DNA from: Janthinobacterium sp. 67
GTDB taxonomy: Bacteria > Pseudomonadota > Gammaproteobacteria > Burkholderiales > Burkholderiaceae_D
NCBI RefSeq assembly: GCF_002797895.1
Contig: NZ_PGES01000001.1
Location: 744,001-808,000 of the forward strand
Length of the DNA stretch: 64,000 nucleotides
Direction of reading: 5' to 3'
Part shown: in pieces, positions 11,437 through 30,314 of the stretch
How the letters are laid out: each line of letters starts with the position of its first letter
Position numbering within the stretch: the stretch's first letter is position 1
Notes under the pieces: model-generated
Seen by the model: only the letters and a program-made list of their open reading frames with translations
Database searches by the model: none
What the model was told of the DNA's origin: nothing
Made by a program: the position numbers and the translations under genes

Positions 11437-13224
11437 TTACTTTGCAAAGTGCGCTTCGATCTCTTCCAGCGTCTTGCCCTTGGTTTCGGGCAGCAAAAAC
11501 GCGGCCGCCAGGAAATACAGCACCGTGCAGCCGGCGCCGAAGAAGAACAGGGTCGAATAGCCGTGCAAGCCCACGGTGGGCAGGAAGATGGCGGCGATCA
11601 CCGTCGAGACGAACTGGTTCACCAGCAGCGCGATGCTCATGCCGTTCGAGCGTATGCGCGTCGGCATCAGTTCGGACAGGGCCAGCCACACGCACACGCC
11701 CGGTCCCACGGCAAAGCTGGAGACGAACACGCAGATGGCAATGGCCACCAGCCAGCCGTGCGTGGACGATGGCACGGGACCCAGGCTGGCCTTCTCGATG
11801 CGCAAGGGCGCCTCGCGACCGGCGGCCGGGTCGGCGAACGGATTGAGGTGCAGCTTGCGGAAGAACACGCCGATCACGCTGTCAGGCTGCACGGCGTCGT
11901 CGCGGGCGATCGTCACCTGGCGCAGCACGGGGTCGTCGCTGCGCAGGCTTTTCACATTCGTGAACGGACCGTAGGCATAGGCGATGGTCAGCTGCTGCGG
12001 CGTGCCATCGGCCGCCGCGCCCAGGGCCGTCAAGGTGGCCGCATCGAGCTGCAAGGCCAGGCCGTCCGCCTGCACTTGCGCCGAGATGGCGGGGCGCACG
12101 TCGACCAGGTGGGCTTCGGCGCCGCGGAACAGCAGGCCGGCCGCCAGCAGCGAGACGACGATGCCGCCCGTGCCCAGCATCAGCAGGAACTTGCGGCCCT
12201 TGCGGTCCACCAGCAGCACGGCCACCACCGTCATCAAGGCGTTCAGCACTTTCAGCAGGACGTCCGCCATGTTGGCCGAGGCGCCCGACAGGCCCGCCTG
12301 GTTCAGGATATTGACGACATAGGCGAGGATGGAATTGATGCCCGTCGCCTGCGTGCAGGCGAGGATCAAACAGGCCAGCAGGAAGGGCAGCACGTAGCGG
12401 CGGCTCAGCAGCGGGTCTTTCGCCTTGCCGCCGGCCTTGGCGGCGTTTTCGGGGGTATCCTGCATCTCGCGCAGTTCGACGTCGGCGGCGGCGGGCAGGC
12501 GCGTGCGCAGCAGCGACTGGCGCGCCTGCTCGATGCGGCCGCGGCGGACCAGCCAGCGCGGCGACTCGGCCAGCAGCAGCGCGCCGACGGTAAATACGAG
12601 GCCCGGCGTCAAACAGACCCAGAAGATGCTGCGCCAGGCCTGGTCCTTGGCCGTGAAGATGGCGGCGGCGCGGCCCGCTTCGGGCAACGCTTGCGCGGCC
12701 TGCGTGGCCGTTTCCACCGTCTGCGCCTGCATCAGGCCGATCAGGGCCGCGGCCACGAGGCCGATGGTCAGCAGCAGCTGGAACAGGGCGGCGCCGCGTC
12801 CGCGCTGCTGCGCGGGCAGGCATTCGGCCAGGTACAGGGGCACGACGACGCCGATCAAGCCGCCGCTGATGCCTTGCAGCAGGCGGCCCAGCAGCAGCGG
12901 CGTGTAGCCGTCGGCCAGCGCGATCAGCGGGATGCTGGCGCTGAACAGAGCGCCGGCCAGGAACATCACCCAGCGCCGGCCCAGGATATCAGCCAGGGCG
13001 CCGGCGAACAGTGACGACAGGACGGAACCGAGCAGCACGGCGGCGACGATAAAGCTCAACTGCTGGGCCGTCAGTTTCCAGGCCACGGAGGCCGTCGATT
13101 CCAGGTAGGGCAGGGCGCCGGCGATGATGCCGATATCTATGCCGTACAGCAATCCCCCCATGCCGGCAATAAATAGCAGGTAGCGCATGGCCCACACGGG
13201 GGCCTTGTGTGACGTGTCGTGCAT
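11437..13224 (-). CDS. MFS sugar transporter, likely GalNAc permease, with large periplasmic insert
   Basis: 595 residues starting MHDTSHKAPV, with GGAG before the ATG. Sugar-porter motifs are clear: GGLLYGIDIGIIAGALPYL in helix 1, DILGRRWVM, QGISGGLIGVVVPLYLAE, PESPRWL-like AESPRWLVRRGR, DRKGRKFLLMLG and LPETKGKTLEEIE near the C-terminus. Family members usually have about 450-500 residues. Here about 120 extra residues (368-490) sit between predicted helices 9 and 10, and another 30 near 165-198. It is the last gene of the operon encoding GalNAc catabolism, so GalNAc or a GalNAc-containing product is the likely substrate. Specificity is inferred from context only. Confidence 0.88.
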   Translation of the reverse strand: MHDTSHKAPVWAMRYLLFIAGMGGLLYGIDIGIIAGALPYLESTASVAWKLTAQQLSFIVAAVLLGSVLSSLFAGALADILGRRWVMFLAGALFSASIPLIALADGYTPLLLGRLLQGISGGLIGVVVPLYLAECLPAQQRGRGAALFQLLLTIGLVAAALIGLMQAQTVETATQAAQALPEAGRAAAIFTAKDQAWRSIFWVCLTPGLVFTVGALLLAESPRWLVRRGRIEQARQSLLRTRLPAAADVELREMQDTPENAAKAGGKAKDPLLSRRYVLPFLLACLILACTQATGINSILAYVVNILNQAGLSGASANMADVLLKVLNALMTVVAVLLVDRKGRKFLLMLGTGGIVVSLLAAGLLFRGAEAHLVDVRPAISAQVQADGLALQLDAATLTALGAAADGTPQQLTIAYAYGPFTNVKSLRSDDPVLRQVTIARDDAVQPDSVIGVFFRKLHLNPFADPAAGREAPLRIEKASLGPVPSSTHGWLVAIAICVFVSSFAVGPGVCVWLALSELMPTRIRSNGMSIALLVNQFVSTVIAAIFLPTVGLHGYSTLFFFGAGCTVLYFLAAAFLLPETKGKTLEEIEAHFAK

Positions 13225-13259
13225 GGTAACTCCGGGACGGGGTTGAGGTTGTGGATGGT

Positions 13260-14354
13260 CTAGCGGGTGGAAAGATCGATGGCCGCGCCTTCGACGAAGA
13301 CGGACACGGGCTGCAAGTTGGCATCGAGGACGACGATGTCGGCCCAGGCGCCCGCCGCCAATCGGCCCCGTTCGGACTCGCCCAGGTAATCGGCCGGGTA
13401 CAGCGAGAGGCGGTTCGAGGCGTCGGCCAGGTCCAGGCCCAGGTCGACGAAATTGCGCAGGGCCTGGTCCATGGTCAGCACGCTGCCGGCCAGCGAGCCC
13501 GTGGCCAGGCGCACGCAGCCCAGGCATTTGTAGACGCGCTGCGTGCCCAGGCCGTACTCGCCATCGGGCATGCCGGTGGCCGAAGTGGCGTCCGTCACGC
13601 CGTACAGGCGCGGGATGGCGCGCAGGGCCGCGCGCAGGGCGCCCTTGGCCACGTGCTGCAGGTCGGGGATGATTTCCGCATATTCGGCGTGCGCGAGCGC
13701 CGCGCCCACCATGCCCGGGTCGTAATGCGTCATGCCCGTCATGCCGTTGTACAGGTGGGTAAAGCCGGAGACGCCGGCCTGCAGCGCCGCCACGCCTTCG
13801 TCATACGTGCCGGCGCTGTGGCCGATCTGCACGCGGATGCCCATGGCCGCCAGTTGCGGGATCAGTTCCAGATGGCCGGGGATTTCCGGCGCCATGGTCA
13901 GGACCTTGATGGGGGCGATGGCGTGAAAGCGCTGCACCAGCGCCAGGCTGGCCTGCACCACGTCGGGCGGCTGCGCGCCCAGGCGGTGCAGGTTCAAGAA
14001 CGGTCCTTCCAGGTGCACGCCCAGCATGCGCGCGCCGTTGGCGGGACGCTCGGCGATGACGCCGGCCAGGCCTTGCAGGGCGCGCAAAATCGAGGGTTCC
14101 TTGGCCGTCAGGGTGGTGCCCAGCAGGGCCGTGGTGCCGTGGCGCGCGTGCACTTGCGCCACGGTGGCGCCCGCGTCCCCGCCTTCCATGATGTCGACGC
14201 CGGCCGCGCCATGCACGTGCAGGTCGATAAAGCCGGGCAGGATGGTCAGCGCGCTGTCGGCGGCAGGGTCTTCTTGTATCTGGACGATGCGCTGGTCAAA
14301 GGTGATGGTGCCCGTGATCCAGCCAGATGGGGTAAGGATTCTGCCGCTCAGCAT
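13260..14354 (-). CDS. agaA: N-acetylgalactosamine-/N-acetylglucosamine-6-phosphate deacetylase
   Basis: 364 residues, a normal NagA/AgaA length. Amidohydrolase signatures are present: PGFIDLHVHGA (His46, His48), GVHLEGPFL (metal-binding Glu116), QIGHSAGTYDEG, FTHLYNGMTGM and GVTDATSATG. It removes acetate from the 6-phosphorylated amino sugar. NagA and AgaA are hard to separate by motif; the neighbours AgaS, AgaZ and a ROK kinase favour the GalNAc role. The ATG lies four bases after the agaR stop, so the two are translated in close succession. The 3-prime end is 35 bases from the transporter. Confidence 0.9.
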   Translation of the reverse strand: MLSGRILTPSGWITGTITFDQRIVQIQEDPAADSALTILPGFIDLHVHGAAGVDIMEGGDAGATVAQVHARHGTTALLGTTLTAKEPSILRALQGLAGVIAERPANGARMLGVHLEGPFLNLHRLGAQPPDVVQASLALVQRFHAIAPIKVLTMAPEIPGHLELIPQLAAMGIRVQIGHSAGTYDEGVAALQAGVSGFTHLYNGMTGMTHYDPGMVGAALAHAEYAEIIPDLQHVAKGALRAALRAIPRLYGVTDATSATGMPDGEYGLGTQRVYKCLGCVRLATGSLAGSVLTMDQALRNFVDLGLDLADASNRLSLYPADYLGESERGRLAAGAWADIVVLDANLQPVSVFVEGAAIDLSTR

Positions 14355-14357: not shown

Positions 14358-15125
14358 TTATTCCGCTATAAAAAGTTCGATGCCCAGCTTTTGCAGCCCT
14401 TCGCGGTACTCCTGGCTGATGCTGGCATCGGTGATGACGGTATCGACCCGGTCCAGCTGCACGATGCGGTGCAGGCTGACGCGGCCGAACTTCGAGGCGT
14501 CCGTGAGGACGATGATTTTCTTGGCCCGTTCCACCATCTTGTGGTTCAGGCTTGCTTCCGCTTCGTGGTGGGTGGTCACGCCAAACTGCAGGTCGAAGCC
14601 GTCCACGCCCAGGAACAGCTTGTCGAAGCTGTAGGCCTGCAAGCAGGTTTCCGCCTGGCTGCCCTGGATCGACAGCGACTGCTTGCGCAGCAGGCCGCCC
14701 GTGAGGATCAGGTCCACGCCGGGCGCGTCGGCCAGTTCCCATGCGATGTTCAGGCCATTCGTGGCCACCGTCACGCCGGTGGCGTCGCGCAGATGGCGCG
14801 CCAGCGAGATGGTCGTGGTGCCCGAATCGATGATGATGTTGTCGCCCGGTTCCACCAGCCGCGCCGCATAGGCGCCGATGCGCTCCTTCTGCTCGTGGTT
14901 GATGGCGTCCTTCTGGCGTATCGTGTGTTCAAGCGGGGGCGTGCGCGTGAGGGTCGCGCCGCCGTGGCTGCGCGTGGCCATGCCTTGCGCTTCCAGCGCA
15001 TTCAGGTCGCTGCGGATGGTGACCGCGGACACGCCGAGCTTTTCCACCAAGTCGGTCACTTGCACCGAGCCCTGCTGGGCAAGCATTTGGAGGATGGATT
15101 CACGGCGTTGGCTGGTATTTCGCAT
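14358..15125 (-). CDS. agaR: DeoR-family transcriptional repressor of the aga locus
   Basis: 255 residues, the standard DeoR size. The N-terminal winged helix-turn-helix (about 5-58) shows QRRESILQML, VTDLVEKLGVSAVTIRSDL and RSHGGA. The C-terminal DeoRC sensor domain has IIIDSGTTTISLARHL, VATNGLNIAWEL, LTGGLLRKQSLSIQG, FLGVDGFD and LTDASKFGR. DeoR-family proteins are usually repressors released by a phosphorylated sugar intermediate. It sits inside the operon it probably controls; candidate operators are the ACGAAAG repeats near 18641 and 25404. The assignment as AgaR rests on gene context. Confidence 0.88.
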   Translation of the reverse strand: MRNTSQRRESILQMLAQQGSVQVTDLVEKLGVSAVTIRSDLNALEAQGMATRSHGGATLTRTPPLEHTIRQKDAINHEQKERIGAYAARLVEPGDNIIIDSGTTTISLARHLRDATGVTVATNGLNIAWELADAPGVDLILTGGLLRKQSLSIQGSQAETCLQAYSFDKLFLGVDGFDLQFGVTTHHEAEASLNHKMVERAKKIIVLTDASKFGRVSLHRIVQLDRVDTVITDASISQEYREGLQKLGIELFIAE

Positions 15126-15160: not shown

Positions 15161-16504
15161 TTAACAGATTGCCGCTTCGGCAATGACGGGGACTGCCGCA
15201 TTGCGGTTGCAGGCGCGCGCATATTGCGCCAGCAAGCTGCCGATCTTGTGCTCGATCAGGGCCGGCGCCTGCGCCGGCAGGCTGCCCTGCACCACGGCCA
15301 GGTACTGCTCCGGCAAATGCTGGCTCAGGAGCGGCAGCGGAATGGCGACCGTATCGAGGTTGGCCAGCAGCTTGGCGACGGCGGCCGCCACTTCCGGCTC
15401 GCCCCAGTAATAGCGGCAACGGTCGCTCAAGCCGTAGCGGCGCATCAAGCGCTGTTCTTCCGGCGTGCCCAGGTAATGCTTGATCCAGTTCTTCGGCTTG
15501 GCCACCATCACGTCGTCGAGCACCTGCATCAGCTGCGACGTGGCGTGCGCCGGCAGCAGTTCTTCCTCGATCTGGCACAGCGCGAACAGCGCCTCGCGCA
15601 AGGCGAAGGTGGCGGCCGGGCCCACTTTCAGGATGGCGAAATGGTCGCGCACCATGGCGTGCAGCGCCGTTTCGCGCTGGTAGTCGGTGGAATGGGCTTC
15701 GAACACGAGGCCGGGCTGTTCGGCGACGAAGGCCGACAGTTCGGCGGCGGCATCGGCGTCGTAATGCTGGATGCTGCTCTGGTCGAAATCGACACCCGGC
15801 TGCACCACCATGGCGATGACGCGGCGCCAGGCGCCATGCAATTCCTTGTCGAGGAAGGCGCGGCGGTGCACGTCGAGCGTGCGGCGCGCCGCCTGCGGGC
15901 TGGTGACGGCGCCTGCCTGTGCCAGCGATGCTTCGCCGCCGGGAACCGGTACTTCCGTGCCGATCACGTAGACGGGCGGCGCGAAGCCGGCGGCGGCCGC
16001 CGCTTCCTCGGCCACGATGCACAGGCGCGCCGAACGGGCGGCCACGGTTTCATCGTCGAGCTGCAAGGGATCGTCGGCACAGCGCATGCTGCAATCGAGG
16101 TGGATTTTATGGAAGCCGGCCGACGCATACGCGGCGATCAGGGTCTCGGCGTGGTCCATGGCGGTGGCCGCATCGAGGTGCTGCCAGGCGTTCGGACCCA
16201 GATGGTCGCCGCCCAGCACCAGGCGGCTGGCGGGGAAACCCTGTTCGCGGGCCAGGGCCAGCATGGTGTCGCGGAAAACGGCCGGCGTCATGCCCGTGTA
16301 GCCGCCGAACTGGTCGACCTGGTTCGACGTCGCCTCGACCAGCAGCACCGTGTCGTACTCGCTGGCCACGCGCATGGCGGCGCGCAGCACGCTCGGGTGG
16401 CTGCAGCAGACGGCGTACAGTCCCACGCGCTCGCCGCGGCGGTGCGCCTTGATCACTTGCTGGATCGGAGACAGGGTAAAAGTCGGGTTTTCCGCTTGTT
16501 TCAT
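15161..16504 (-). CDS. agaZ: D-tagatose-bisphosphate aldolase-associated subunit / putative tagatose-6-phosphate kinase (GatZ/KbaZ/AgaZ family)
   Basis: 447 residues starting MKQAENPTFT, preceded by AAAGG. Family landmarks include LSPIQQVIKAHRRGERVGLYAVCCSHP, EATSNQVDQFGGYTGM, LGGDHLGPNAWQ, FHKIHLDCSMRCADD, YVIGTEVPVPGG and FEAHSTDYQ. GatZ/KbaZ proteins were described as non-catalytic partners of the class II aldolases GatY/KbaY; AgaZ of some proteobacteria is instead considered a tagatose-6-phosphate kinase. No aldolase gene lies in this cluster, which favours the kinase role or requires an aldolase elsewhere. The gap to agaR is 35 bases and to the ROK kinase 5 bases. Confidence 0.88.
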   Translation of the reverse strand: MKQAENPTFTLSPIQQVIKAHRRGERVGLYAVCCSHPSVLRAAMRVASEYDTVLLVEATSNQVDQFGGYTGMTPAVFRDTMLALAREQGFPASRLVLGGDHLGPNAWQHLDAATAMDHAETLIAAYASAGFHKIHLDCSMRCADDPLQLDDETVAARSARLCIVAEEAAAAAGFAPPVYVIGTEVPVPGGEASLAQAGAVTSPQAARRTLDVHRRAFLDKELHGAWRRVIAMVVQPGVDFDQSSIQHYDADAAAELSAFVAEQPGLVFEAHSTDYQRETALHAMVRDHFAILKVGPAATFALREALFALCQIEEELLPAHATSQLMQVLDDVMVAKPKNWIKHYLGTPEEQRLMRRYGLSDRCRYYWGEPEVAAAVAKLLANLDTVAIPLPLLSQHLPEQYLAVVQGSLPAQAPALIEHKIGSLLAQYARACNRNAAVPVIAEAAIC

Positions 16505-16509: not shown

Positions 16510-17457
16510 TTACGCCTTTATATGTTGTCGTATCAAGAGGGCCGCGCCGCGCGCGCCGCCGGCGTCGCCAAAGCGGGGCGGCAGGATCGGCGGCACGTGC
16601 ACGCCTGGGAACAGATGGCGCTTCACGGCGGCCGGCAGCTTGTCGTACAGGTGCGGCAGTTTGGACAGGCCGCCGCCAAGCACGATGACGTGCGGGTCGT
16701 AGGCCAGCACGAGGCCGGCCAGCGCGTGGCCCAGCACGTCGAGGTGAACGGCCACCGTGCGCTGGGCCACGGCGTCGCCCATGTTGGCGCGGGCGACGAT
16801 GGCCAGCGGCTCGGCGCCGTCGCCGCCGAAATGCGCGTGGAGCTTGCGCATGGCGGGGCCGGAGACATAGCGCTCCAGGCAGCCCGCCTTGCCGCACGGG
16901 CAGGCGTAATCGGCCAGGCCGTGCTGCGCCATCAGGGCGGCGGGCAGGCTCCAGTGACCCCATTCGCCGGCCACGCCGTTAAAGCCGCGCAGCAGCTGGC
17001 CGCCCACGCAATAGCCGCCGCCGGCGCCCGTGCCGAGGATGGCGCCGAACATGCTGGCGGCATTGTCTGCCGCGCCGCCCTGCGCTTCCGACAGGGCGAA
17101 GCACTGGCAATCGTTGCCGATGGCGACGGGGCGCCGCAAGGCTTGCTGCAGGGTTTGCGCCACGAGACGGCCGTTCAGGGCCGGCACGTTGGAGCTGAGC
17201 TGGCGTCCGCTGGCGCTGTCGATCACGCCGGGCAAGCCGATGCCGACGGGCGCCGTCGTGCTCAGGGCCGCGTCGCCGCGCGCCACCAGGTCGACGATGG
17301 CTTGCACGAAGGCGGCAAAATCGTCGCCGGGCGTGGCCACCCGTTCGCGGAACACTTCCGTCAGCGCGCCGTCGCGGTCGGCAAAGGCCACCAGCTCCAT
17401 CTTGCTGCCGCCGATGTCGATGCCGTGGTAGCCGGCGGTGGGATTAGAATTGGTCAT
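16510..17457 (-). CDS. agaK: ROK-family amino-sugar kinase, likely GalNAc kinase
   Basis: 315 residues. ROK hallmarks: ATP-binding GIDIGGSKMEL near the start, GIGLPGVID, IGNDCQCFALSEA (catalytic Asp), GTGAGGGYCVGGQLLRG, NGVAGEWGHWSLP, and the zinc-binding CPCGKAGCLE. ROK kinases phosphorylate N-acetylhexosamines or glucose at the 6-hydroxyl. Position between agaS and agaZ indicates GalNAc, but GlcNAc cannot be excluded. The start lies inside the end of agaS; ATG codons at 17463 and 17457 are both possible and the second gives a 14-base overlap. No strong ribosome-binding site is visible, consistent with translational coupling. Confidence 0.88.
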   Translation of the reverse strand: MTNSNPTAGYHGIDIGGSKMELVAFADRDGALTEVFRERVATPGDDFAAFVQAIVDLVARGDAALSTTAPVGIGLPGVIDSASGRQLSSNVPALNGRLVAQTLQQALRRPVAIGNDCQCFALSEAQGGAADNAASMFGAILGTGAGGGYCVGGQLLRGFNGVAGEWGHWSLPAALMAQHGLADYACPCGKAGCLERYVSGPAMRKLHAHFGGDGAEPLAIVARANMGDAVAQRTVAVHLDVLGHALAGLVLAYDPHVIVLGGGLSKLPHLYDKLPAAVKRHLFPGVHVPPILPPRFGDAGGARGAALLIRQHIKA

Positions 17458-18580
17458 GGCCATAGATGGTGACGCCTTGCACGACACGATTGACGATGCC
17501 GCCGGCGAATGGATTGTCGGGGCGCAGTTGCAGCAGCGCGGACTGGTGCAGCGCATATTGCTGCGCCATCAGCAGCCACAATGGGGCCAACCAGGCGTCG
17601 GGCCAGGCCGGCGCGTCGGCAGACAGGTCGCCGCCGATGCCCACGGTCAGGCAGGTCTGCGCCACGCTGTCGCGCTGCAGTTCTTTCAATAGGTCGTCTT
17701 CGTACTGGCGTGCCAATGGCTTGCCGCTGCGCAGCAGGATCACCAGCGACTCCGTGGTGACGGCCGATTTCGGGCCATGGCGGAAACCCAGCGGCGTATT
17801 CGCCATCGCCATCACTCTGCCGCCCGTCAATTCCAGGATCTTCAATGCGGCCTCCTTGGCCAGCGCTTCCAGCGGTCCGCTGCCCAGGTAGACGACGCGC
17901 CGCACCGGTGTCGAACCGAGGTCCGCCACGGGCGCCGACCAGTCGCGCAAGGCTTGCTCGCCCAGCTGCGCCAGGGTGTCCAGGCGGGTCAGATCCGTGT
18001 CCTTGCCCAGCACCGACAGGGCCGCCAGCAGCATGCTGCTGAAACTGCTGGTCATGGCGAAGCCGCGGTCGCAGCTGCCTTCCGGCATCAGCAGGTTATA
18101 GGTATTGCTGTCGTTCGCGCCCTGGCGCGCCAGCTTGCCATCGGCGTTGCAGGTGATGTTCAGGAAACGCGCGCCGGGCACGACCTGGCGCAGCAGTTCC
18201 ACGGCGGCCAGGCTTTCCGGGCTGTCGCCGCTGCGGGCAAACGAGACGAGCAGGGTGGGCGCGTCCGCTTCCAGGTACAGCTCATGGTGCGTCAGCAAAG
18301 TCGTGGTGGCGATGGCGCGGATCTGCGCGGGCCAGGCCGCATTCAAGGTATCGGCGACGATTTCGCCCACGTAGGCCGAGCTGCCGGCGCCCGTCAGGAT
18401 GACGCGCTGCTGCGGATGGGACAGGGCGTTGCCCAGGAAGGCGGCCAGTGCTGCCTGCTCCTTGCGCAAGATGGTGGCCAGCGCGCGCCAGATGGCCGGC
18501 TGCTGCGCGATCTCCTCGGCCGTGTGCAAGCCGCCGATGTCGCGCCAGGTTTGAATGTCACGCTGAAGAAGGGTAGTCAT
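17444..18580 (-). CDS. agaS: Galactosamine-6-phosphate deaminase/isomerase, SIS family
   Basis: 378 residues with two SIS domains, as in AgaS and the GlmS isomerase half. Visible motifs are VILTGAGSSAYVGEIV, LLVSFARSGDSPESLAAVEL, LNITCNADGKLARQ, VYLGSGPLEALAKEAALKILELTGG and NTPLGFRHGPKSA. AgaS converts galactosamine-6-phosphate to tagatose-6-phosphate plus ammonia. It is the first gene of the six-gene minus-strand operon, starts 30 bases after the predicted -10 box, and has only a weak ribosome-binding site. Divergently, the GH31 gene starts 348 bases away across a motif-rich control region. Confidence 0.9.
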   Translation of the reverse strand: MTTLLQRDIQTWRDIGGLHTAEEIAQQPAIWRALATILRKEQAALAAFLGNALSHPQQRVILTGAGSSAYVGEIVADTLNAAWPAQIRAIATTTLLTHHELYLEADAPTLLVSFARSGDSPESLAAVELLRQVVPGARFLNITCNADGKLARQGANDSNTYNLLMPEGSCDRGFAMTSSFSSMLLAALSVLGKDTDLTRLDTLAQLGEQALRDWSAPVADLGSTPVRRVVYLGSGPLEALAKEAALKILELTGGRVMAMANTPLGFRHGPKSAVTTESLVILLRSGKPLARQYEDDLLKELQRDSVAQTCLTVGIGGDLSADAPAWPDAWLAPLWLLMAQQYALHQSALLQLRPDNPFAGGIVNRVVQGVTIYGHDQF

Positions 18581-18609
18581 GAGAGGTCAGTAAAGTGTTT
18601 GTTGTGAGA

Positions 18610-18638
18610 AAGCATAAATACTAAATTTCGAAAAGTCA
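18610..18638 (-). promoter_or_regulatory. Sigma70-type promoter of the aga catabolic operon
   Basis: On the minus strand TTGACT (18633-18638) and TATGCT (18610-18615) are separated by exactly 17 bases. The tandem ACGAAAG repeats begin three bases upstream of the -35 hexamer, a position that suits a repressor or a promoter-proximal operator. Confidence 0.65.
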
Positions 18639-18640
18639 AA

Positions 18641-18661
18641 TACGAAAGTAAAACGAAAGTA
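18641..18661. promoter_or_regulatory. Tandem ACGAAAGTAAA operator, candidate AgaR site
   Basis: ACGAAAG occurs at 18641-18647 and again at 18652-18658, one helical turn (11 bases) apart, each followed by TAAA or similar. On the other strand this is a CTTTCGT direct repeat. DeoR-family regulators, including AgaR, are known to use tandem direct repeats with a TTTC core. The assignment to the AgaR encoded here is inferred. Confidence 0.6.
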
Positions 18662-18760
18662 AATAGTTTGCCGGCTTGCGAAATAATGTCGTTTTCACGG
18701 CGGTGAAGCATGCTGCGGTGCAGCGCAAAAGCCCGTGGCGGCGCGGCCTGTCGCTGAAAT

Positions 18761-18807: not shown

Positions 18808-18865
18808 AAAATTGCGCCAATTCTGGGCATTTTATTAATGAATTGCCGCTTTAACTTTCTTTTGA

Positions 18866-22279: not shown

Positions 22280-22302
22280 CTGCTTCAATCATTTCACTAA
22301 AA

Positions 22303-22378: not shown

Positions 22379-25324
22379 ATGCACTTGAAAAAACTGATGG
22401 CCGCGATGGTGGCGGTGGGGCTGGCGTCGACAGCGCTGGCGGCGGAGGAGGAGAAACTGGCGCGTGTCGAAGTGACGGGATCGAGCCTGAAGCGCATCAA
22501 CGCGGAAACGGCGTCGCCCGTCCAGGTGATCAACGCCAAGCAGATCGAGAACATGGGCGCGCTCACCTTGCTGCAAGTGCTCGACAACCTGCCCGCAGCC
22601 CGCCCGGCGCAGCAGGACTTCCGCTCGATGTTCACGGGTTCCGATGGCGGCTCGCAGGCGAACTTGCGCGGCATGGGTGCGCAGGGCACCCTGGTGCTTT
22701 TGAATGGCCGCCGCCTGTCGTTCTACGGCGCGCCGGCCGGCTTCCAGACCATGTTCGTCAATATCGACGCCATCCCCGCCGCCGCCATCGAGCGCATGGA
22801 AATTTTGACGGACGGCGCGTCGGCCGTGTATGGCTCCGACGCCGTGGCCGGCGTCATCAACGTGATCACCAAGAAATCGTACCAGGGCCTGGAAGCGCGC
22901 GCCAACGGCGAGTTTTCGCCGAGCGTGAAAGCGTATGGCGAGCGCCAGGCCAGCGTACTGTATGGCCTGGGCGACCTGGCCAGCGACGGCTACAACATCT
23001 ACGGTTCCGTGAACGTCTACCAGCGCGACCGCATCGCGCTGGCCGATACGTACCAGAAGCGTCCCTCGTATTTTTATGTGAACAATCCCAATTTCATCCC
23101 GAACATGCGCGTGGGCGTCGGCAGCGAGCCGGGCGTGATGAATCCCGGGACCTTCTTTGTCTTCGACAAGGCGAAGAACAATGCGCGCACCCAGCGTGCC
23201 GTCAATGGCTGCAACACCAGCATCACCGAAGCGTCGGGCACGCGCTGCGTGTGGAATGCGCTGCCGAACCAGCTCGACACGGGCCCGACTTCGGAGCGCG
23301 CCACGGCCTACGTGAGCGGCCGGCTGAAGCTCGGTGGCGACATGGAAGCGTTCGCGGAAGGCGCTTTCACCCACATCAAGATGCGCGGCGAGAACGGCCC
23401 GTCCACCTTCAACAGCGGCAGCACGAACAACTGGTTTGCGCGCAATACGGGCAATACCCTGAATACCTTCGCCACGCCTTTCCTGAGTCCCAACAACGTC
23501 TACCTGAAAGGCAAGCTCGATGCCGACATGGTGGCCAAGATGGGCGGCGCGGCCGGCTTGAACTATTTGCTGCAAGATGCGACGGGCCACTTCGGCCAGA
23601 AGAACGTCGATGAAAACTACCGCGCGCTCGTCGGCCTGCGCGGCAGCATCGGCGGCGGCTGGGATTTTGAAACGGCGCTCAGCGTGGCGGGCAGCCATTC
23701 GACCCTGTTCCAGACGGCGAACATCAACATCAAGGGCTTCGAGCAGGCATTCGGCCCGTTCACGAAGGACCCCGTCAGCGGCCGCACATATATCTCCGAC
23801 AATCCCGCCTACCAGTTCGGCGAAATCAGCGAAGCGAATGCGGCGCTCCTGCGTGCCGCCTATCCGACGTTTGCCATCGAATCGTGGACCAAGCTGATGA
23901 CGTGGGATGCGAAGCTGGAAGGTACCCTGTTCAAGCTGGGCGAGCGCGAAGTGCGCGCCGCCGTGGGTACCAACATCATGCGCGAGAGTTTTCTCACGCC
24001 CGGCAACGCGGATGCGGCCAATGGCCTGATCACGCAGCAGGGCGGTTCCTGGTTCGACGGCCGGCGCACCATCGCCGCCGTGTTTGGCGAAGTGGTGGTG
24101 CCGCTCAGCGACACCCTGGAAGTCAATGCGGCCGCGCGGCTGGACAAGTATCCGCATTTCTCGGCCAACTTGGCGCCCAAGCTGGGCGTGATCTGGCGCG
24201 CGCGGCCCGACCTGATGCTGCGCGGGACGTATTCGGAAGGCTTCCGCGCGCCCAACCTGGCCGAATCGGGCACGGGCGGCGTCTTTGCGCAGGTGGGCGG
24301 CATCCGCGACACGGTGCGCTGCGATGAAACGAACGCCATGGCGCGCGCGCTGATGAAGTCGAAGGTGGCGACGGATGCGGACCTGGGCAAGAGTTTGCTG
24401 AACTCGAACTGCTCGACGACGGTGGGCGGCCTGACGCCGCCGAACCAGAACCTGCGCCCGGAAAAGGCCAAGATTTCCACCGTGGGCCTGGTGCTGCAGC
24501 CGGCCAAGGACGTGAGCATCTCCATCGATTACTGGTTCATCAACCGCCGCGATGAAATCGTGCGGCAGGACTTCAACGAGCTGTTTACGGAAGTGGTGGA
24601 CAAGTACGGCCCGACCCTGGCCGGCACGCCCAGCGCCATCCGCAATGGCTTGACCGATGCGGACCGGGGCAACGTGGCGGCGGTGGCGGCCATGTGCGCC
24701 AATCCCGCCAACGCGGGCGTGTGCGCGGGCGGCGTGCCCGGCTACTCGGTGGGCAACCTGGGCGGCTTGATCAACTCGTATTCGAACCGGGGCCGCACGC
24801 TGATGGACGGCGTGGACATCGACGCGCGCACGCGCTTCGGGCTCGGTGACTGGGGCAAGCTGAGCACGGGCATCGCGGCCACCATCCGCAAGCGCGACAC
24901 CCACGACAGCGAAGACGGCAGCGACATCAAGGGCAACACCGTCGGCTACTACGATTCGCCGCGCTACCGCGCGACGGTCAACGCCGACTGGAGCTACCGC
25001 AACTTCGTCAGCAGCGTCTTCATCAACTATTCGGGCAAGACGCGCTGGGCCTATGGTCCCTGGGACAAGGACAACACGCCGGAAAACTGCACCGCCGCCT
25101 CGGTGGCGTTGCCGGCCGGCCAGTGCAAGGGCGCGCCGTCGTACACGACGGTGAATCTGGCCTTCAGCTGGAAGCCGATGAAGAACCTCGACGTGGGCCT
25201 GAACGTGAAAAATGCGTTCAACAAGCAGCCTTACTATGACCCGAACGGCTGGGAAGGCTACAACCATAGCCAGGACCTGTTCGGCCGCCAGTTCGCCCTG
25301 TCGGCCAGCTACAAGTTCTTTTAA
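22379..25324 (+). CDS. TonB-dependent outer-membrane receptor
   Basis: 981 residues; the ATG at 22379 follows AGGGAG. A signal peptide (about 1-21, ending STALA-AEE) precedes a plug domain (about 30-165) with VEVTGSSLKRINAETASPV, GSQANLRGMGAQGTLVLLNGRRL and TDGASAVYGSDAVAGVINVITKK. The remainder is a beta-barrel ending in the outer-membrane signature FALSASYKFF with terminal Phe. TonB receptors of this style take up oligosaccharides, siderophores or vitamins using proton-motive force. Its place 99 bases after the GH31 gene, without a new promoter, points to uptake of the glycan or product handled by that enzyme. No SusD-like partner is present, as expected in Proteobacteria. Confidence 0.9.
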   Translation: MHLKKLMAAMVAVGLASTALAAEEEKLARVEVTGSSLKRINAETASPVQVINAKQIENMGALTLLQVLDNLPAARPAQQDFRSMFTGSDGGSQANLRGMGAQGTLVLLNGRRLSFYGAPAGFQTMFVNIDAIPAAAIERMEILTDGASAVYGSDAVAGVINVITKKSYQGLEARANGEFSPSVKAYGERQASVLYGLGDLASDGYNIYGSVNVYQRDRIALADTYQKRPSYFYVNNPNFIPNMRVGVGSEPGVMNPGTFFVFDKAKNNARTQRAVNGCNTSITEASGTRCVWNALPNQLDTGPTSERATAYVSGRLKLGGDMEAFAEGAFTHIKMRGENGPSTFNSGSTNNWFARNTGNTLNTFATPFLSPNNVYLKGKLDADMVAKMGGAAGLNYLLQDATGHFGQKNVDENYRALVGLRGSIGGGWDFETALSVAGSHSTLFQTANINIKGFEQAFGPFTKDPVSGRTYISDNPAYQFGEISEANAALLRAAYPTFAIESWTKLMTWDAKLEGTLFKLGEREVRAAVGTNIMRESFLTPGNADAANGLITQQGGSWFDGRRTIAAVFGEVVVPLSDTLEVNAAARLDKYPHFSANLAPKLGVIWRARPDLMLRGTYSEGFRAPNLAESGTGGVFAQVGGIRDTVRCDETNAMARALMKSKVATDADLGKSLLNSNCSTTVGGLTPPNQNLRPEKAKISTVGLVLQPAKDVSISIDYWFINRRDEIVRQDFNELFTEVVDKYGPTLAGTPSAIRNGLTDADRGNVAAVAAMCANPANAGVCAGGVPGYSVGNLGGLINSYSNRGRTLMDGVDIDARTRFGLGDWGKLSTGIAATIRKRDTHDSEDGSDIKGNTVGYYDSPRYRATVNADWSYRNFVSSVFINYSGKTRWAYGPWDKDNTPENCTAASVALPAGQCKGAPSYTTVNLAFSWKPMKNLDVGLNVKNAFNKQPYYDPNGWEGYNHSQDLFGRQFALSASYKFF

Positions 25325-25329
25325 TCCGT

Positions 25330-25367
25330 GACGATGCCCCGGCCCGCCAGCTGGCCGGGGTATTGTC
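25330..25367 (+). terminator. Hairpin after the first receptor gene, weak terminator
   Basis: GACGATGCCCCGGCC pairs with GGCCGGGGTATTGTC over 15 base pairs, two of them G-T, around an 8-base loop. It starts five bases after the receptor stop codon. There is no T-tract, so it may act with Rho or as an RNA-stabilising end. Confidence 0.5.
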
Positions 25368-25814
25368 GTGGAAAAGAAAAGACAATATTCCGAAATGCGC
25401 AATACGAAAGATAAACGTAAGTGAAAGCAGATAGTCAGGCCTGCTTTCGCGTTTTTCTCCCCAATTTTTTGCACTGATTCGCCGTTTCTTTGCACGTCAA
25501 TACAGCCGCGTGTATCTGTTACGCCACGATAACGAAAGTTATTTTCCGCGAACTGGATCGAAGCGAAAGATAAAAAGCCTGAATTCGCTGAATATAGCGA
25601 TAAATTGCCGTTGTAACTTTCTTTTTGTTGACGATACTTATTTTTCTTTTTAAAGTAATCCCAAGAAAAGAAAATCAGCCGATACGGACTGGTTCCCGGA
25701 AGGTGCAACTGCCTGGCGCTACCTTCCGACGACCACCATAAAAATTGCATCCCCCCGACTTCGCCCTGGAGCGGGGAGGGCGCGCATAACCCTCGATATA
25801 GACGGAGAGACACC
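25368..25814. repeat. Control region of the second receptor, copy 2 of the duplicated aga segment
   Basis: This 490-base gene gap (25325-25814) holds a second copy of the 18608-18900 region. It has ATACGAAAG at 25402 followed 11 bases later by ACGTAAG (25415), the 17-mer GCCACGATAACGAAAGT at 25523-25539, GCGAAAG at 25563, and AATTGCCG at 25603 leading into the promoter. The part matching the agaS promoter has lost its -35 hexamer (TTGCGC instead of TTGACT), as expected since no divergent gene remains. From about 25660 to 25814 the leader has no match in copy 1 and no other feature was recognised. Confidence 0.75.
25628..25656 (+). promoter_or_regulatory. Sigma70-type promoter of the receptor-GH109 unit
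   Basis: TTGACG (25628-25633) and TAAAGT (25651-25656) are 17 bases apart, with sequence around them nearly identical to the GH31 promoter. The leader to the receptor start is about 150 bases, much longer than in copy 1. Confidence 0.7.
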
Positions 25815-28800
25815 ATGCATACCACCCGACTCAAATTGCGCGACATCAGCCGCGCCGCCGCGATCGTGATCGCCCTGGCGGCCGGCGTGCCAGGCCAGGC
25901 CTGGGCACAGTCGAACGCCACCAGCACCATTTTCGGCGAAGTGAGCGCGCCGGCCGGCGCCACCGTGGTGCTGGAAAACCTGGCGACGGGCGTGCAGCGC
26001 ACCTTGACGCCGGATACGTCGGGCCGCTATGTGGCCAACTCCATGCCGCCAGGCCGCTATGCGGTGCGCGTGCTGCGTGCCGGTTCGGTGGAAGCGTCGC
26101 AGGAAGTCGAAGCCCTGATCGGCGCGGGCGCGGAAGCGAACTTCGGCCCGGCCAGCGCGGCTGGCGCCGTGGGCCAGGAGCAGACCGTCGTGGTGAAGGC
26201 GTCACGCAATCCGATCGACGTGTCGAACACGAACAATGGCGTGATCTTCACGGCCAAGGAATTGAAGGCGCTGCCGGTCGGCAATGACGTGGCGTCCATC
26301 GTGCAGCTGACGCCGGGCGTTTCGCGCGGCACCAACAGCGTGTATGGCAATGCGCCATCGATCGGCGGCTCGGGCCAGTCGGAAAACGCGTTCTACGTCA
26401 ACGGCTTCCCCATCACGAACATCCTGACCCAGGTGGGCGCGTCGGAGCTGCCGTTTGGCGCGATCTCGAACCTGCAGGTGCTGTCGGGCGGCTACGGTTC
26501 GGAATTTGGCCGTTCCACGGGCGGCGTGATCAACATCACCACCAAGAGCGGCGGCAACAAGGTCGAATTCGGCGGCAAGGTCTCCATCATCCCCCGTTCG
26601 CTGAAGGGCGAGCCGGAAAACACCTATTACCCGAACACGGGCGCCAATCCCAAGACGGACGGCAATCTGCTGTACTGGAACCGCGACAATGGCAGCACCA
26701 GCAAGGTGGTGGGCCTGTACGGCAGCGGTCCGCTGATCAAGAACAAGCTGTTCGCCTTCGTGGCGCTGGAACAGACGCGCACGGACAGCCAGTCCGTTGC
26801 CGCCGCCGCCGATTCCGGCACGGCCCTGGCGCGCGGCTGGAGCACGAGCCAGAGCAAGGTGGACCGCATGATGGCCAAGCTGGACTACAACCTGACGGAC
26901 GACCATCACTTCGAATACACCAAGCTGTATGACCGCACGAAAACGGACAGCCAGGCGTATGGCTACAGCTACGCCACGCATGCGAGCAACGGCGTACAGG
27001 CAGGCAAGGGCGAGACGACGGTCAACTGCTGCGGTTCCTCGGCCGCGCCGGGCGCCAACATCGACATCTTCAAATACACGGGCTACCTGACGGACAACCT
27101 GACCGTAACGGCCATGATGGGCGAATCGCGCACCTCGCACACCCGCACGCCGAACGGCTACAACCCGCTGCTGGCGCAAACGTCGTCGAATACGTCGACG
27201 CAGGTGCCCGGCCTGACGTACGCCAATCCGCAAACGGTGACGGGCACCCTGGTCGACCCATCGTCGGAAGACCGCCAGAAAGCCAAGCGCCTGGATCTCG
27301 AATACAAGCTGGGCAAGCACTCGCTGCGCGGCGGCATCGACCGCATCGACGTGGAATCGAAAGTGGGCCTGAGCCTGGCCGGCGGCTACCGCTGGAGCTA
27401 CCAGCGCGCGACCGATCCTAACCGGGCCATCAACGGCGCCTTTGAAACGCCGGCCCAGGGCGGCGGCTACGGCGCGCAGGGCTATTACGTCAGCAAGGAC
27501 TTGAACGCCAACCTGGCGCGTCCGACCAGCGTGCAATCGGCGCAATACATCCAGGACCATTACCAGGTCACGGAACGGGTGCTGCTGGACCTGGGCCTGC
27601 GCCGCGAACAGTTCACCAACTACAGCACCGATGGCGTGGCCTTCATTTCCCAGCGCAACATGATCGCCCCGCGCGTGGGCGCCACCTGGGATTACCTGGG
27701 CGACGGCACCCTGAAGTTCTTCGCCAACGGCGGCCGCTACCACCTGCCGGTGCCATCGAATTTGTCGAGCAATATGGCCAGCCCCTTCCTGGCCACCAGC
27801 GAGATGTACACGTACACGGGCGTCGATCCCGTCACGGGCGCGCCGACGGGCCTGCATGCGATCAGCAAGCCATATTCGGCCAACAATGCGTATGGCCAGA
27901 GCCGCGACGCGCGCGAAGTGACGGCCATCGGCCTGAAACCGCTGTCGCAGGACGAATTCTCGCTCGGTTTCGAGCGCGCCCTGAGCAAGAAGCTGGTGGT
28001 GGGCGCCAGTGTCCTGTACCGCAAGCTGAACGACACCAACGACGACGTTTGCGACGCGCGTCCGCTGCAAGCCTGGGCCACGCGCAACGGCGTCGACACG
28101 AGCAACTGGGGCGGCTTCCAGTGCGCCATCATCAACCCGGGCCGCGACAACAGCCTGATGGTGGACTTCGACGACGGCAAGGGCTTGCGCCGCGTGGATA
28201 TTTCGGCGGCGGAGTGGGGCAACCCGCTGCCATCGCGCACCTACCGCGCCCTGAACATGTTCGTCGAGCACCCGTACACGAATGGCTGGTACGGCAAGCT
28301 GACCTACACCCTGTCTGCGCTGAAGGGCAATATGGAAGGCCAGACGGACAGCATCGGCGGCGGCGACGTGGGCCTGACGGTCAGCGACGACCACAAGGAA
28401 CTGATGTACAACGCGTATGGCTACCTTCCGGGCGACCACCGCCACGCCTTCAAGGCCTACGGCTTCATGCAGCTCATCCCGGACGTGATGGTCGGCGCCA
28501 ACCTGTCGCTGACCTCGGGCGCGCCGCGCAACTGCATCGGCGCGCTGCCCGACAACCTGAAGTTCGAGAACGACTACGGCGATTCCTACTTCTATTGCGA
28601 TGGCAAGCCGGCGCCGCGCGGCAGCCAGGGCCGCCTGCCATGGCAAGCCCAGCTGGACATGAATGTGGCCTATACTCCCAGCGCCATCAAGGGCCTGAGC
28701 CTGAAAGTGGACGTCTTCAACGTGTTCAACAGCCAGACCGTGACCCGCTACAACGAGACGCGCGAAGACCATGGCGCCATCGCCCGCAGCTATCTGCAGG

Positions 28801-28856
28801 TGGCCGGCCGCACGGCGCCGCGTTCCGTGCGCTTCACGGCGGAATACACCTATTAA
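25815..28856 (+). CDS. TonB-dependent receptor with N-terminal carboxypeptidase-regulatory-like domain
   Basis: 1013 residues with GGAGAGA before the ATG. A signal peptide ends at AWAQ (about residue 32). Residues about 36-110 form a short beta-sandwich of the carboxypeptidase-regulatory type (GEVSAPAGATVVLENLATG, SGRYVANSMPPGRYAVRV). The plug follows (about 125-250; GYGSEFGRSTGGVINITTKSGGN) and then the barrel, ending RFTAEYTY. Oar-like receptors with this extra domain import large substrates, often peptides or glycans. It has its own copy of the aga-type promoter and is followed after 66 bases by the GH109 gene, so uptake of a GalNAc-containing glycan or glycopeptide is the best guess. Confidence 0.88.
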   Translation: MHTTRLKLRDISRAAAIVIALAAGVPGQAWAQSNATSTIFGEVSAPAGATVVLENLATGVQRTLTPDTSGRYVANSMPPGRYAVRVLRAGSVEASQEVEALIGAGAEANFGPASAAGAVGQEQTVVVKASRNPIDVSNTNNGVIFTAKELKALPVGNDVASIVQLTPGVSRGTNSVYGNAPSIGGSGQSENAFYVNGFPITNILTQVGASELPFGAISNLQVLSGGYGSEFGRSTGGVINITTKSGGNKVEFGGKVSIIPRSLKGEPENTYYPNTGANPKTDGNLLYWNRDNGSTSKVVGLYGSGPLIKNKLFAFVALEQTRTDSQSVAAAADSGTALARGWSTSQSKVDRMMAKLDYNLTDDHHFEYTKLYDRTKTDSQAYGYSYATHASNGVQAGKGETTVNCCGSSAAPGANIDIFKYTGYLTDNLTVTAMMGESRTSHTRTPNGYNPLLAQTSSNTSTQVPGLTYANPQTVTGTLVDPSSEDRQKAKRLDLEYKLGKHSLRGGIDRIDVESKVGLSLAGGYRWSYQRATDPNRAINGAFETPAQGGGYGAQGYYVSKDLNANLARPTSVQSAQYIQDHYQVTERVLLDLGLRREQFTNYSTDGVAFISQRNMIAPRVGATWDYLGDGTLKFFANGGRYHLPVPSNLSSNMASPFLATSEMYTYTGVDPVTGAPTGLHAISKPYSANNAYGQSRDAREVTAIGLKPLSQDEFSLGFERALSKKLVVGASVLYRKLNDTNDDVCDARPLQAWATRNGVDTSNWGGFQCAIINPGRDNSLMVDFDDGKGLRRVDISAAEWGNPLPSRTYRALNMFVEHPYTNGWYGKLTYTLSALKGNMEGQTDSIGGGDVGLTVSDDHKELMYNAYGYLPGDHRHAFKAYGFMQLIPDVMVGANLSLTSGAPRNCIGALPDNLKFENDYGDSYFYCDGKPAPRGSQGRLPWQAQLDMNVAYTPSAIKGLSLKVDVFNVFNSQTVTRYNETREDHGAIARSYLQVAGRTAPRSVRFTAEYTY

Positions 28857-28922
28857 ACTGCAGCCGGCCTGCCGCGCGGCGGGCCGGCGACGATCATTAC
28901 CAATGGAAGCGAGAAGAGACCA

Positions 28923-30314
28923 ATGACGACACAATTCAATCGACGCAATTTCCTGTCCGCCAGCGCCGCGCTGGCCGGTGGCGCCATGGCCGGCAGCACT
29001 TTGCTGCCTGGCGAGGCCAACGCCGCACCCGCCGCCGGCCGCGACAAGGTCCGCCTGGGCCTGATCGGCACGGGCATGCGGGGACAGGTACTGCTGGCCG
29101 AACTGGTGCGCCGCGACGACGTGGAAGTGGTGGCCCTGTGCGACATCGAACCGATCATGCTGAAGCACGCGCTGGGCCAGGTGGCCAAGGCCGGCAAGCC
29201 GCGTCCGCGCACGTACGGCGAAGACCGCGACCAGAAAGCGTACAAGCGCATGCTGGACGCGGGCGGCCTCGATGGCGTGATCATCGCCACGCCGTGGGAA
29301 TTCCATGCGCCGATGGCGATCGCCGCCATGCAGGCGAAGATCGCCGTCGGCTGCGAAGTGGTGGCCGGCATCACCCTGCAAGACCACTGGGACGTCCTGA
29401 ACACCCAGCTGAAGACGGGCACGCCGTACATGTTGCTGGAAAACGTGTGCTACCGCCGCGATGTGATGGCCGCGCTGCAGATGGTGCGCGCGGGCCTGTT
29501 TGGCGAACTGCTGCACCTGCAGGGCGGCTACCAGCATGATTTGCGCGCCGTGAAATTCAACAGCGGCAATCCGGCCAAGCCGTATGGCGGCGGCGTGGAA
29601 TTCGGCGAGAAGGGCTGGTCGGAAGCCCATTGGCGCACGCAGCACTCGGTCGAGCGCAATGGCGAGCTGTATCCTAGCCACGGCATCGGCCCGTGCGCCA
29701 TGTACACCAACATCAACCGCGGCAACCGTTTTACGCGCATCAACGCCTTCGCCACCAAGGCGCGCGGCTTGCACGACTACATCGTCAAGCAGCCGGGCGG
29801 CGCGCAGCATGCGAACGCCAAGGTGAAATTCAAGCTGGGCGACGTGGTCACCACCACCCTGGCGTGCGAGAACGGCGAAACCATCATCCTGCAGCACGAT
29901 ACGAGCCTGCCGCGCCCGTACTCGCTGGGCTTCCGCGTGCAGGGCACGGACGGCCTGTGGATGGACTTGAACAATTCGATCCACATCGAAGGCGTCAGCA
30001 AACCGCACCAGTGGGATGACTTCAAGACCTACCAGGACAAATATGACCACCCGGTGTGGCGCAAATACGCGGCGCAGGCGGAAGGCGCGGGCCACGGCGG
30101 CATGGACTTTTTCGTCATCCACGCCTTTGTCGAAGCGCTCAAGGCGAATGCGCCTATGCCGATCGATATCTACGATGCCGTGACGTGGAGCGCCATCACG
30201 CCGCTGTCCGAACAGTCGATCGCGGCCAACTTCCAGACCCTGGACTTCCCGGACTTCACGGGCGGGCAGTGGAAATCGCGCAAGCCGATCTTCGCGCTCG
30301 ACGGCAAGTACTAA
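28923..30314 (+). CDS. Tat-exported GH109 family alpha-N-acetylgalactosaminidase (Gfo/Idh/MocA fold)
   Basis: 463 residues. A twin-arginine signal (RRNFLSASAALAGG, cleavage near ANAAPA at about 35) implies export folded with cofactor bound. A Rossmann domain carries VRLGLIGTGMRGQ (46-53) and ALCDIE for NAD. The middle contains LLENVCYRRDVMA and GGYQHDLRAVKFNSG, and the catalytic-region motif YPSHGIGP with His253. These are the marks of GH109, which hydrolyses terminal alpha-GalNAc by an NAD-dependent redox mechanism, as in the blood-group-A-cleaving enzyme. Other Gfo/Idh/MocA proteins share the fold, but this motif set with a Tat signal and the aga neighbourhood makes the assignment strong. 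It shares a transcript with the receptor upstream. Confidence 0.88.
   Translation: MTTQFNRRNFLSASAALAGGAMAGSTLLPGEANAAPAAGRDKVRLGLIGTGMRGQVLLAELVRRDDVEVVALCDIEPIMLKHALGQVAKAGKPRPRTYGEDRDQKAYKRMLDAGGLDGVIIATPWEFHAPMAIAAMQAKIAVGCEVVAGITLQDHWDVLNTQLKTGTPYMLLENVCYRRDVMAALQMVRAGLFGELLHLQGGYQHDLRAVKFNSGNPAKPYGGGVEFGEKGWSEAHWRTQHSVERNGELYPSHGIGPCAMYTNINRGNRFTRINAFATKARGLHDYIVKQPGGAQHANAKVKFKLGDVVTTTLACENGETIILQHDTSLPRPYSLGFRVQGTDGLWMDLNNSIHIEGVSKPHQWDDFKTYQDKYDHPVWRKYAAQAEGAGHGGMDFFVIHAFVEALKANAPMPIDIYDAVTWSAITPLSEQSIAANFQTLDFPDFTGGQWKSRKPIFALDGKY

Follow-up and report, generated by a model that had tools for sequence, protein, structure and literature searches.

An AgaR-type N-acetylgalactosamine locus of Janthinobacterium with predicted GH31 and GH109 glycosidases and a putative O-glycopeptidase

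The window, a stretch of 64,000 nucleotides from the 6.45 Mb genome of Janthinobacterium sp. 67, carries a divergent gene cluster for N-acetylgalactosamine (GalNAc). The cluster belongs to the proteobacterial AgaR GalNAc pathway in the form that does not use a phosphotransferase system (non-PTS), widened by two glycosidases of the glycoside hydrolase families GH31 and GH109, a second TonB-dependent receptor and a DUF5077-DUF3472 lipoprotein. It was judged fairly probable that these genes form an AgaR-controlled system which frees GalNAc from glycoproteins bearing alpha-GalNAc and then burns it. The glycosidase pair is real but partly precedented, and the predicted O-glycopeptidase beside it is the less expected part.

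Gene content was derived from the list of open reading frames together with Pfam and NCBIfam scans of the window proteins. The leftward arm reads agaS-ROK kinase-agaZ-agaR-agaA-MFS, and the rightward side consists of GH31-TonB receptor 1 followed, after a second regulatory region, by TonB receptor 2-GH109-DUF5077-DUF3472 lipoprotein. Every gene listed in the first-pass annotation of this stretch was found in its place and orientation; the extent given there stopped one gene early and left out the lipoprotein. Starts on the minus strand were picked among candidates, the longest open reading frames extending them by 101 (MFS), 299 (agaR), 153 (agaZ) and 31 (kinase) codons. The features are as follows:

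11437..13224, minus strand: MFS sugar porter (PF00083, E 2.7e-84; sugar porter family, 244.6 bits, cut-off 237.8)
13260..14354, minus strand: agaA, putative GalNAc-6-phosphate deacetylase, NagA-like (TIGR00221 nagA, 223.5 bits, cut-off 225.65)
14358..15125, minus strand: agaR, DeoR-family repressor (NF040755 AgaR, 330 bits, cut-off 260)
15161..16504, minus strand: agaZ (TIGR02810, 606 bits, cut-off 569)
16510..17463, minus strand: agaK, ROK-family sugar kinase (PF00480, E 4e-61)
17444..18580, minus strand: agaS, putative galactosamine-6-phosphate deaminase/isomerase (TIGR02815, 402 bits over residues 17-373, cut-off 529)
18581..18928, no strand: divergent regulatory region (six CTTTC/GAAAG elements; promoter-like TTGACG-17-TAAAGT at 18866-18894)
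18929..22279, plus strand: GH31 enzyme with F5/8-type and NPCBM domains (Sec-type signal; predicted nucleophile D379 and acid/base D430)
22379..25324, plus strand: TonB-dependent receptor 1 (PF00593, E 5.4e-36; PF07715, E 8.9e-21)
25325..25814, no strand: second regulatory region of 490 bp, a diverged copy of the first (promoter-like TTGACG-17-TAAAGT at 25628-25656)
25815..28856, plus strand: TonB-dependent receptor 2 with an N-terminal carboxypeptidase-regulatory-like domain (PF25183, PF07715, PF13620)
28923..30314, plus strand: GH109 enzyme with a twin-arginine translocation (Tat) signal (PF21252, E 5.9e-84; PF01408, E 4.1e-8)
30443..31750, plus strand: DUF5077-DUF3472 lipoprotein (candidate catalytic residues E271 and E340)

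The GH31 enzyme is predicted to be an alpha-N-acetylgalactosaminidase (alpha-GalNAcase) of the GH31_18 type. Among the best 60 of 83 matches to solved structures, the highest scores (366-369 bits) belonged to the entries of the Enterococcus alpha-GalNAcase EfGH31 (6m76, 7f7q, 7f7r; GH31 subfamily 18), with the next protein at 188 bits and the others at no more than 161. In the catalytic region, identity to EfGH31 was 39.6% over 487 positions, compared with 22.5% to the E. coli alpha-xylosidase YicI, 22.8% to the sulfoquinovosidase YihQ and 22.4% to the second GH31 of the same genome. An unrooted tree of 10 sequences placed the Enterococcus enzyme with the window group, apart from YicI, YihQ and that second GH31, with a local support of 1.000 for the split. 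The enzyme thus falls with a solved alpha-GalNAcase rather than in a glucosidase or xylosidase subfamily. Residue D379 aligns with the Asp mutated to Ala or Asn in 7f7q and 7f7r, and D430 with the WxGD motif, the Asp of which we take to be the acid/base of GH31; the catalytic contexts DVAW and WTGDQ are shared with EfGH31. Relatives were taken as the best 80 of 215 by GH31 similarity from a genome set with one genome per species, so that the presence of GH31 in these 80 loci holds by construction; both residues were Asp in 80/80 of them. The N-terminus, read from the translation, carries a Sec-type signal without a lipobox.

The GH109 enzyme combines a Gfo/Idh/MocA Rossmann domain (PF01408) with a GH109 C-terminal domain (PF21252); no other GH109 match occurs in the genome. 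It gave nearly full-length matches to the solved alpha-GalNAcase 2ixa (residues 41-463, E 2.2e-146, 491 bits) and to the solved GH109 protein 6t2b (residues 13-458, E 4.9e-73), and is predicted to be an alpha-GalNAcase dependent on nicotinamide adenine dinucleotide (NAD). The His of the GGHGG loop, which is presumably of functional importance, and the Gly after it were kept in 74/74 GH109 relatives. RRNFL stands within the Tat-type signal at the N-terminus; the TIGR01409 Tat domain scored above its cut-off and the Pfam TAT_signal model below its own. For both glycosidases, the alpha-GalNAcase assignment of the first-pass annotation is borne out at the level of sequence.

The DUF5077-DUF3472 protein begins with a lipobox, LLAAC, as read from its translation, and its DUF5077 domain has a CBM35/36-like fold. 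In a fold search, the predicted structure of the protein matched HC7, a member of the DUF3472 family whose structures (8pmu, 8pn3, 8pn5) were determined with glycopeptides; the rows below HC7 (glutamic peptidases, GH16 glucanases, carbohydrate-binding modules and unrelated beta-rich proteins) serve as context only. E340 aligns with HC7 Glu200, a residue mutated in HC7, and E271 is the second conserved Glu, to which we ascribe a role in HC7-type enzymes. Both glutamates were present in 30/30 aligned homologues and in 4/4 divergent segments. From this modelled fold and the matching active-site residue, the lipoprotein is predicted to be an HC7-like O-glycopeptidase. No report of peptidase activity linked to DUF3472 was found in the literature surveyed, which did not include the HC7 paper.

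In a second explanation, the cluster serves general salvage of GalNAc and galactosamine: the glycosidases would act redundantly on any alpha-GalNAc, such as blood-group-A-like caps or lipopolysaccharide, and the DUF3472 protein would merely bind carbohydrate. The absence of a detected DUF3472 gene from more than half of the relatives (counts below) is in its favor, as are passages of PMC11992087 according to which the GH109 of Bacteroides thetaiotaomicron acts on the Tn antigen, the Forssman disaccharide and blood-group A, with the authors speaking of GH109/GH31 redundancy. A protein that only binds would not need the two glutamates, however, and their invariance in all 30 homologues argues against this explanation, which is regarded as rather unlikely.

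Several arrangements of DUF3472 were seen in related loci. DUF3472 combined with ricin-type lectin domains occurs in sister loci; in Lysobacter sp. Root76 (L048, 16259-18903), TonB receptor 1 is separated from GH109 by two tandem DUF3472 genes, each with such a domain. In another Janthinobacterium locus (L009, 21624-21779), the DUF3472 frame is just 51 amino acids long, which points to a disrupted gene or to an error in the sequence. In a genome of the same family without this GH31 (G519), a distance of about 0.55 kb separates the GH109 match from the DUF3472 match, both on one strand, which hints at the two as a unit.

TonB receptor 1 was found in 72/80 relatives and scored 35.7 against the SusC model (cut-off 368), and no SusD match was found among the 10 proteins scanned. 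TonB receptor 2, for which no solved relative was detected by sequence at E 0.01, is present in 25 loci, 23 of which also hold DUF3472; in Duganella (L013, L018, L026, L027), this pair sits between agaS and GH31. A PADLOC search with receptor 2 and the DUF3472 protein gave no match. Between GH31 and receptor 1, a G+C-rich inverted repeat (GAGCCCCTC...GAGGGGCTC) occupies window positions 22300-22336, where a terminator-like site was called once, on the minus strand only.

The arrangement is widely conserved. A gene was counted as present from 50% identity and 60% length upwards; on this basis the 80 loci contained GH109 in 74 cases, agaS in 79, agaK in 79, agaZ in 78, agaR in 78, agaA in 76, MFS in 70 and DUF3472 in 33. 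The six-gene core of agaS, agaK, agaZ, agaR, GH31 and GH109 was held together in 72/80, which places the arrangement beyond chance. The nearest named relatives belong to Janthinobacterium, where GH31 was 95-97% identical in 11 of the 13 loci fetched and 91% and 88% identical in the other two; the betaproteobacterial host proposed in the first-pass annotation is therefore correct in the traditional sense of that class. Other hosts include Oxalobacteraceae genera, Roseateles/Pelomonas/Paucibacter, Stenotrophomonas, Lysobacter, Pseudoxanthomonas and their kin. A contig labelled Bacillus subtilis (L056, JAHREJ010000011.1) also holds the locus, in a copy that resembles the window to the same degree as the Stenotrophomonas copies do, and is probably a mislabelled or mixed assembly.

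Co-occurrence of the glycosidases was also evaluated in genomes that had not been selected by GH31, with a GH31 threshold of E up to 1e-60. Among 215 genomes of the window's family, GH31 was found in 25 and GH109 in 26, with both in 20, GH31 only in 5 and GH109 only in 6 (Fisher p 1.4e-18). Outside the own genus (200 genomes), the corresponding numbers were 8, 5 and 6 (p 6e-8); both p-values are too small, since the genomes are related. In 321 genomes of the class, GH31 and GH109 each occurred in three, the same three, including the genome studied here. The divergence of seven locus genes across 68 relatives was correlated (r 0.83 to 0.97), which is weak evidence because genes of one lineage correlate anyway.

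Regulatory sequence is common to both glycosidase arms and the catabolic operon. The two regulatory regions are identical at 117/161 aligned positions (73%, E 3e-19), with 25505-25663 matching 18743-18901, and a second block of 65 positions relates 25363-25425 to 18599-18663. Six CTTTC/GAAAG elements were counted in each region, compared with means of 1.2 and 1.7 in shuffled sequences; at least six were reached in 2/2000 shuffles of the first region and 12/2000 of the second. Both regions thus carry AgaR-type CTTTC repeats and are candidate AgaR sites. A CTTTC repeat consensus for AgaR was reportedly given by Leyn et al. in 2012, and two intergenic stretches of the E. coli aga region were found to contain 6 and 7 of these elements. 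Among relatives, at least four elements occurred within 350 bp upstream of agaS in 78/79 cases as against 34/1600 random 350-bp stretches of the same loci, a lenient control because it was drawn from whole loci and mostly from coding DNA; the shuffles of each region are the stricter one. Upstream of receptor 1, GH109 and DUF3472, positions mostly inside an operon, 0/178 sequences had at least four. Promoter-like sites numbered three in the first region against 0.4 expected, and one in the second against 0.6 expected, a consensus match that chance could give.

The copy of the promoter region in front of receptor 2 was present in 13/13 Janthinobacterium loci and in 0/12 of the other loci having receptor 2, and in most relatives GH31, receptor 1 and GH109 stand in a row. 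The two-operon form therefore looks like a Janthinobacterium rearrangement. In 8 of the 25 loci with receptor 2, another listed gene lies at most 200 bp upstream, so that no promoter copy would be expected there. When the shared promoter element was searched for across the genome, the two known sites and one with three mismatches were returned, the latter being rejected as the backward control pattern gave four matches. A fixed-spacing AgaR pattern had 3 matches in the window against 1.4 expected, none of them in the regulatory regions, and was set aside.

In the lower pathway, the sole class II aldolase match in the genome is a fructose-bisphosphate aldolase of type B (591 bits, cut-off 496), which lies far below the cut-offs for tagatose aldolases. 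It follows that the genome has no KbaY/AgaY-type class II tagatose-bisphosphate aldolase; class I LacD-type aldolases and tagatose-6-phosphate kinases were not searched. AgaZ is 48% identical to GatZ and 54% to KbaZ of E. coli, and its residues D100, H101, E184 and H271 correspond to Asp87, His88, Glu171 and His257 of GatZ. In passages of PMC11907403, which name these residues, GatZ and KbaZ are described as having C4 epimerase activity between fructose- and tagatose-6-phosphate. With no such class II aldolase present, AgaZ probably acts as a tagatose-6-phosphate 4-epimerase without AgaY, and the simplest reading is that four enzymes convert GalNAc to fructose-6-phosphate. A classical role for AgaZ, in which it would assist a tagatose-1,6-bisphosphate aldolase as a subunit or serve as tagatose-6-phosphate kinase and other genome regions would supply the further enzymes, would accord with the TIGR02810 family name (non-catalytic aldolase subunit) and, for the kinase, with an earlier proposal recounted in passages of PMC12118421. 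The nature of the only class II aldolase (class I aldolases and tagatose-6-phosphate kinases lay outside the search) and the conserved epimerase residues speak against it, and such a role is considered quite improbable.

As for the substrate, the first-pass annotation had proposed mucin O-glycans, galactosaminoglycans or bacterial polysaccharide. O-glycoproteins are favored by the adjacent lipoprotein, with its predicted O-glycopeptidase function, and by the GH35 beta-galactosidase genes found in four sister loci; galactosaminoglycan is less favored, the galactosaminan depolymerase family GH114 (PF03537) having no match in the genome (GH135, GH166, GH101, GH129, GH27, GH36 and sialidases were not searched). 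The cluster might instead serve polymers of alpha-GalNAc, for example the galactosaminogalactan of fungi or a bacterial capsule, opened by enzymes whose genes lie elsewhere, with GH31 and GH109 exo-acting on the fragments and DUF3472 active on polysaccharide. This is held to be unlikely: besides the GH114 result (GH135 and GH166 not searched), glycopeptides are the ligands of HC7, the nearest homologue with a ligand-bound solved structure, and several GH31_18 enzymes release peptide-linked GalNAc according to passages of PMC11790493. Only members active on alpha-GalNAc have been gathered in GH31_18 so far, as stated in passages of PMC13096917.

The analysis established which genes are present and how far they are conserved, the families they fall into, their active-site residues, the duplication of the regulatory region and the lack of a second class II aldolase; the activities, locations, step order, inducer and substrate of the glycoprotein-degrading system are inferred, as follows. 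The surface DUF5077-DUF3472 lipoprotein would clip O-glycosylated protein into glycopeptides, while the secreted GH31 would remove alpha-GalNAc from larger glycoproteins by retaining hydrolysis. Glycopeptides and sugar fragments would be carried into the periplasm by the two TonB receptors, where the Tat-exported GH109, with NAD already loaded, would take GalNAc off small fragments. The MFS porter, probably an inner-membrane transporter whose GalNAc specificity is suggested by gene position, would import GalNAc to the cytoplasm. Tagatose-6-phosphate would then be formed by the ROK kinase, AgaA and AgaS and epimerised to fructose-6-phosphate by AgaZ. AgaR would hold both promoters repressed until GalNAc-6-phosphate forms, a compound for which passages of PMC3668189 report indirect evidence as inducer in E. 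coli.

Several observations weigh against this scheme. GH109 was not seen in 10 kb of downstream DNA in four relatives (L017, L033, L078, L082) that kept GH31 and the aga genes, three of which have DUF3472 (all except L082); the remaining two of the six loci without GH109 (L059, L081) stop at a contig end. A DUF3472 gene was detected in 36/80 fetched loci and not found in 44/80, so that neither GH109 nor DUF3472 is indispensable. The glycosidase genes are unlinked in three genomes, on different contigs in two (G502, G466) and far apart on one contig in the third (G496). The window DUF3472 protein shares about 20% identity with HC7, to which its Pelomonas counterpart likewise gave just a weak match (E 2.6e-4). 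AgaS, AgaA and the kinase scored below curated cut-offs, AgaS and AgaA despite long matches and the kinase under those of all 13 NCBIfam models matched (e.g., 259 bits against 380 for N-acetylglucosamine kinase); while AgaR and AgaZ passed theirs, the assignment of these three genes is thus weaker than the first-pass annotation implied. Within 350 bp upstream of TonB receptor 2, at least four CTTTC/GAAAG elements were present in just 6/25 loci, which makes control of the second arm less sure than that of the first. No match to M60 peptidases or GH35, both signposts of mucin use, was found anywhere in the genome, and longer O-glycans would need other enzymes. Passages of PMC11992087 describe the B. 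thetaiotaomicron GH31 as acting on desialylated mucin and neither on the Tn antigen nor on blood-group A. One GH31_18 enzyme, in passages of PMC13096917, was active on p-nitrophenyl-alpha-GalNAc and inactive on the natural substrates tried, so that activity of the window GH31 on glycoproteins is not a given.

The genera Janthinobacterium, Massilia, Duganella, Stenotrophomonas and Lysobacter inhabit soil, plants, fungi, amphibian skin and water. If the proposed function is right, the foraging on mucin-type O-glycoproteins that has been studied mostly in gut bacteria has a conserved, self-regulated counterpart in these genera, a function is predicted for proteins whose family name is so far that of a domain of unknown function, and AgaZ becomes a clean case of a stand-alone epimerase. 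A broader proposition is offered tentatively, as a serious possibility: that environmental beta- and gammaproteobacteria hold a compact, AgaR-controlled form of O-glycoprotein degradation, in which a lipoprotein acting as a glutamate-type DUF3472 O-glycopeptidase of the HC7 kind supplies glycopeptides, by way of a partner TonB receptor of its own, to two mechanistically different alpha-GalNAcases. If true, the large DUF3472/DUF5077 family, to which the solved 4qhw belongs, would acquire a role beyond the gut, and foraging on mucin-type O-glycans would extend to soil, plant and freshwater bacteria. The two glycosidases would also represent a natural alpha-GalNAcase pair for enzyme mining directed at blood-group and Tn removal. 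Further along the window, narG and narH (respiratory nitrate reductase alpha and beta) lie at 37665-42915 with two MFS genes upstream (33373-36182); the nar genes have no visible tie to the GalNAc cluster.

Compared with known systems, the locus resembles the Shewanella-type AgaR regulon in its AgaR-family regulator, non-PTS permease and kinase, putative deacetylase, putative AgaS and CTTTC repeats. Passages of PMC12118421 describe that regulon as non-PTS, with an outer-membrane protein, AgaP and AgaK; relative to this description the Janthinobacterium locus adds GH31, GH109, the second receptor and the DUF3472 lipoprotein. It differs from the enterobacterial AgaR regulon in that the genome lacks a KbaY/AgaY-type class II aldolase, and from a SusCD-type polysaccharide utilization locus (PUL) of Bacteroidota in having no SusC/SusD pair among the proteins scanned. 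The GH31 enzyme is like EfGH31 in the catalytic region and both catalytic Asp residues; EfGH31 was deposited as an LPXTG cell-wall anchor protein, and the match extends to residue 755 of the window protein, leaving its F5/8 and NPCBM domains uncovered. Compared with the GH109 proteins 2ixa/2ixb and 6t2b, the window enzyme has a Tat signal and stands in an AgaR-type locus, and compared with HC7 the DUF3472 protein has an added DUF5077 domain, a fusion also seen in 4qhw of Bacteroides caccae, and is encoded alongside GalNAc genes.

A functional parallel is B. thetaiotaomicron, as described in passages of PMC11992087, in which one organism uses GH31 and GH109 from separate loci with a division of labour. 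As in its PUL BT4240-50 together with BT3169, GH109 lies by a sugar transporter and a GalNAc kinase, a GH31 is also used, and an O-glycopeptidase is part of the locus (M60-like there, the predicted DUF3472 protein here). In contrast, the B. thetaiotaomicron system has its GH31 outside the PUL and includes a SusCD pair, sigma/anti-sigma genes, an APH-type kinase, M60 and a GH2 galactosidase. The first-pass annotation knew of no description of such an arrangement; none that places GH31 together with GH109 in a proteobacterial aga locus was found in the literature surveyed, which did not include Leyn et al. 2012, although many genera share the arrangement and the B. thetaiotaomicron pairing is published. 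The division of labour reported there would fit a GH31 that is secreted and bears carbohydrate-binding domains, next to a GH109 in the periplasm, and the cluster may work as the GalNAc part of a mucin PUL from the gut does, though built from proteobacterial parts.

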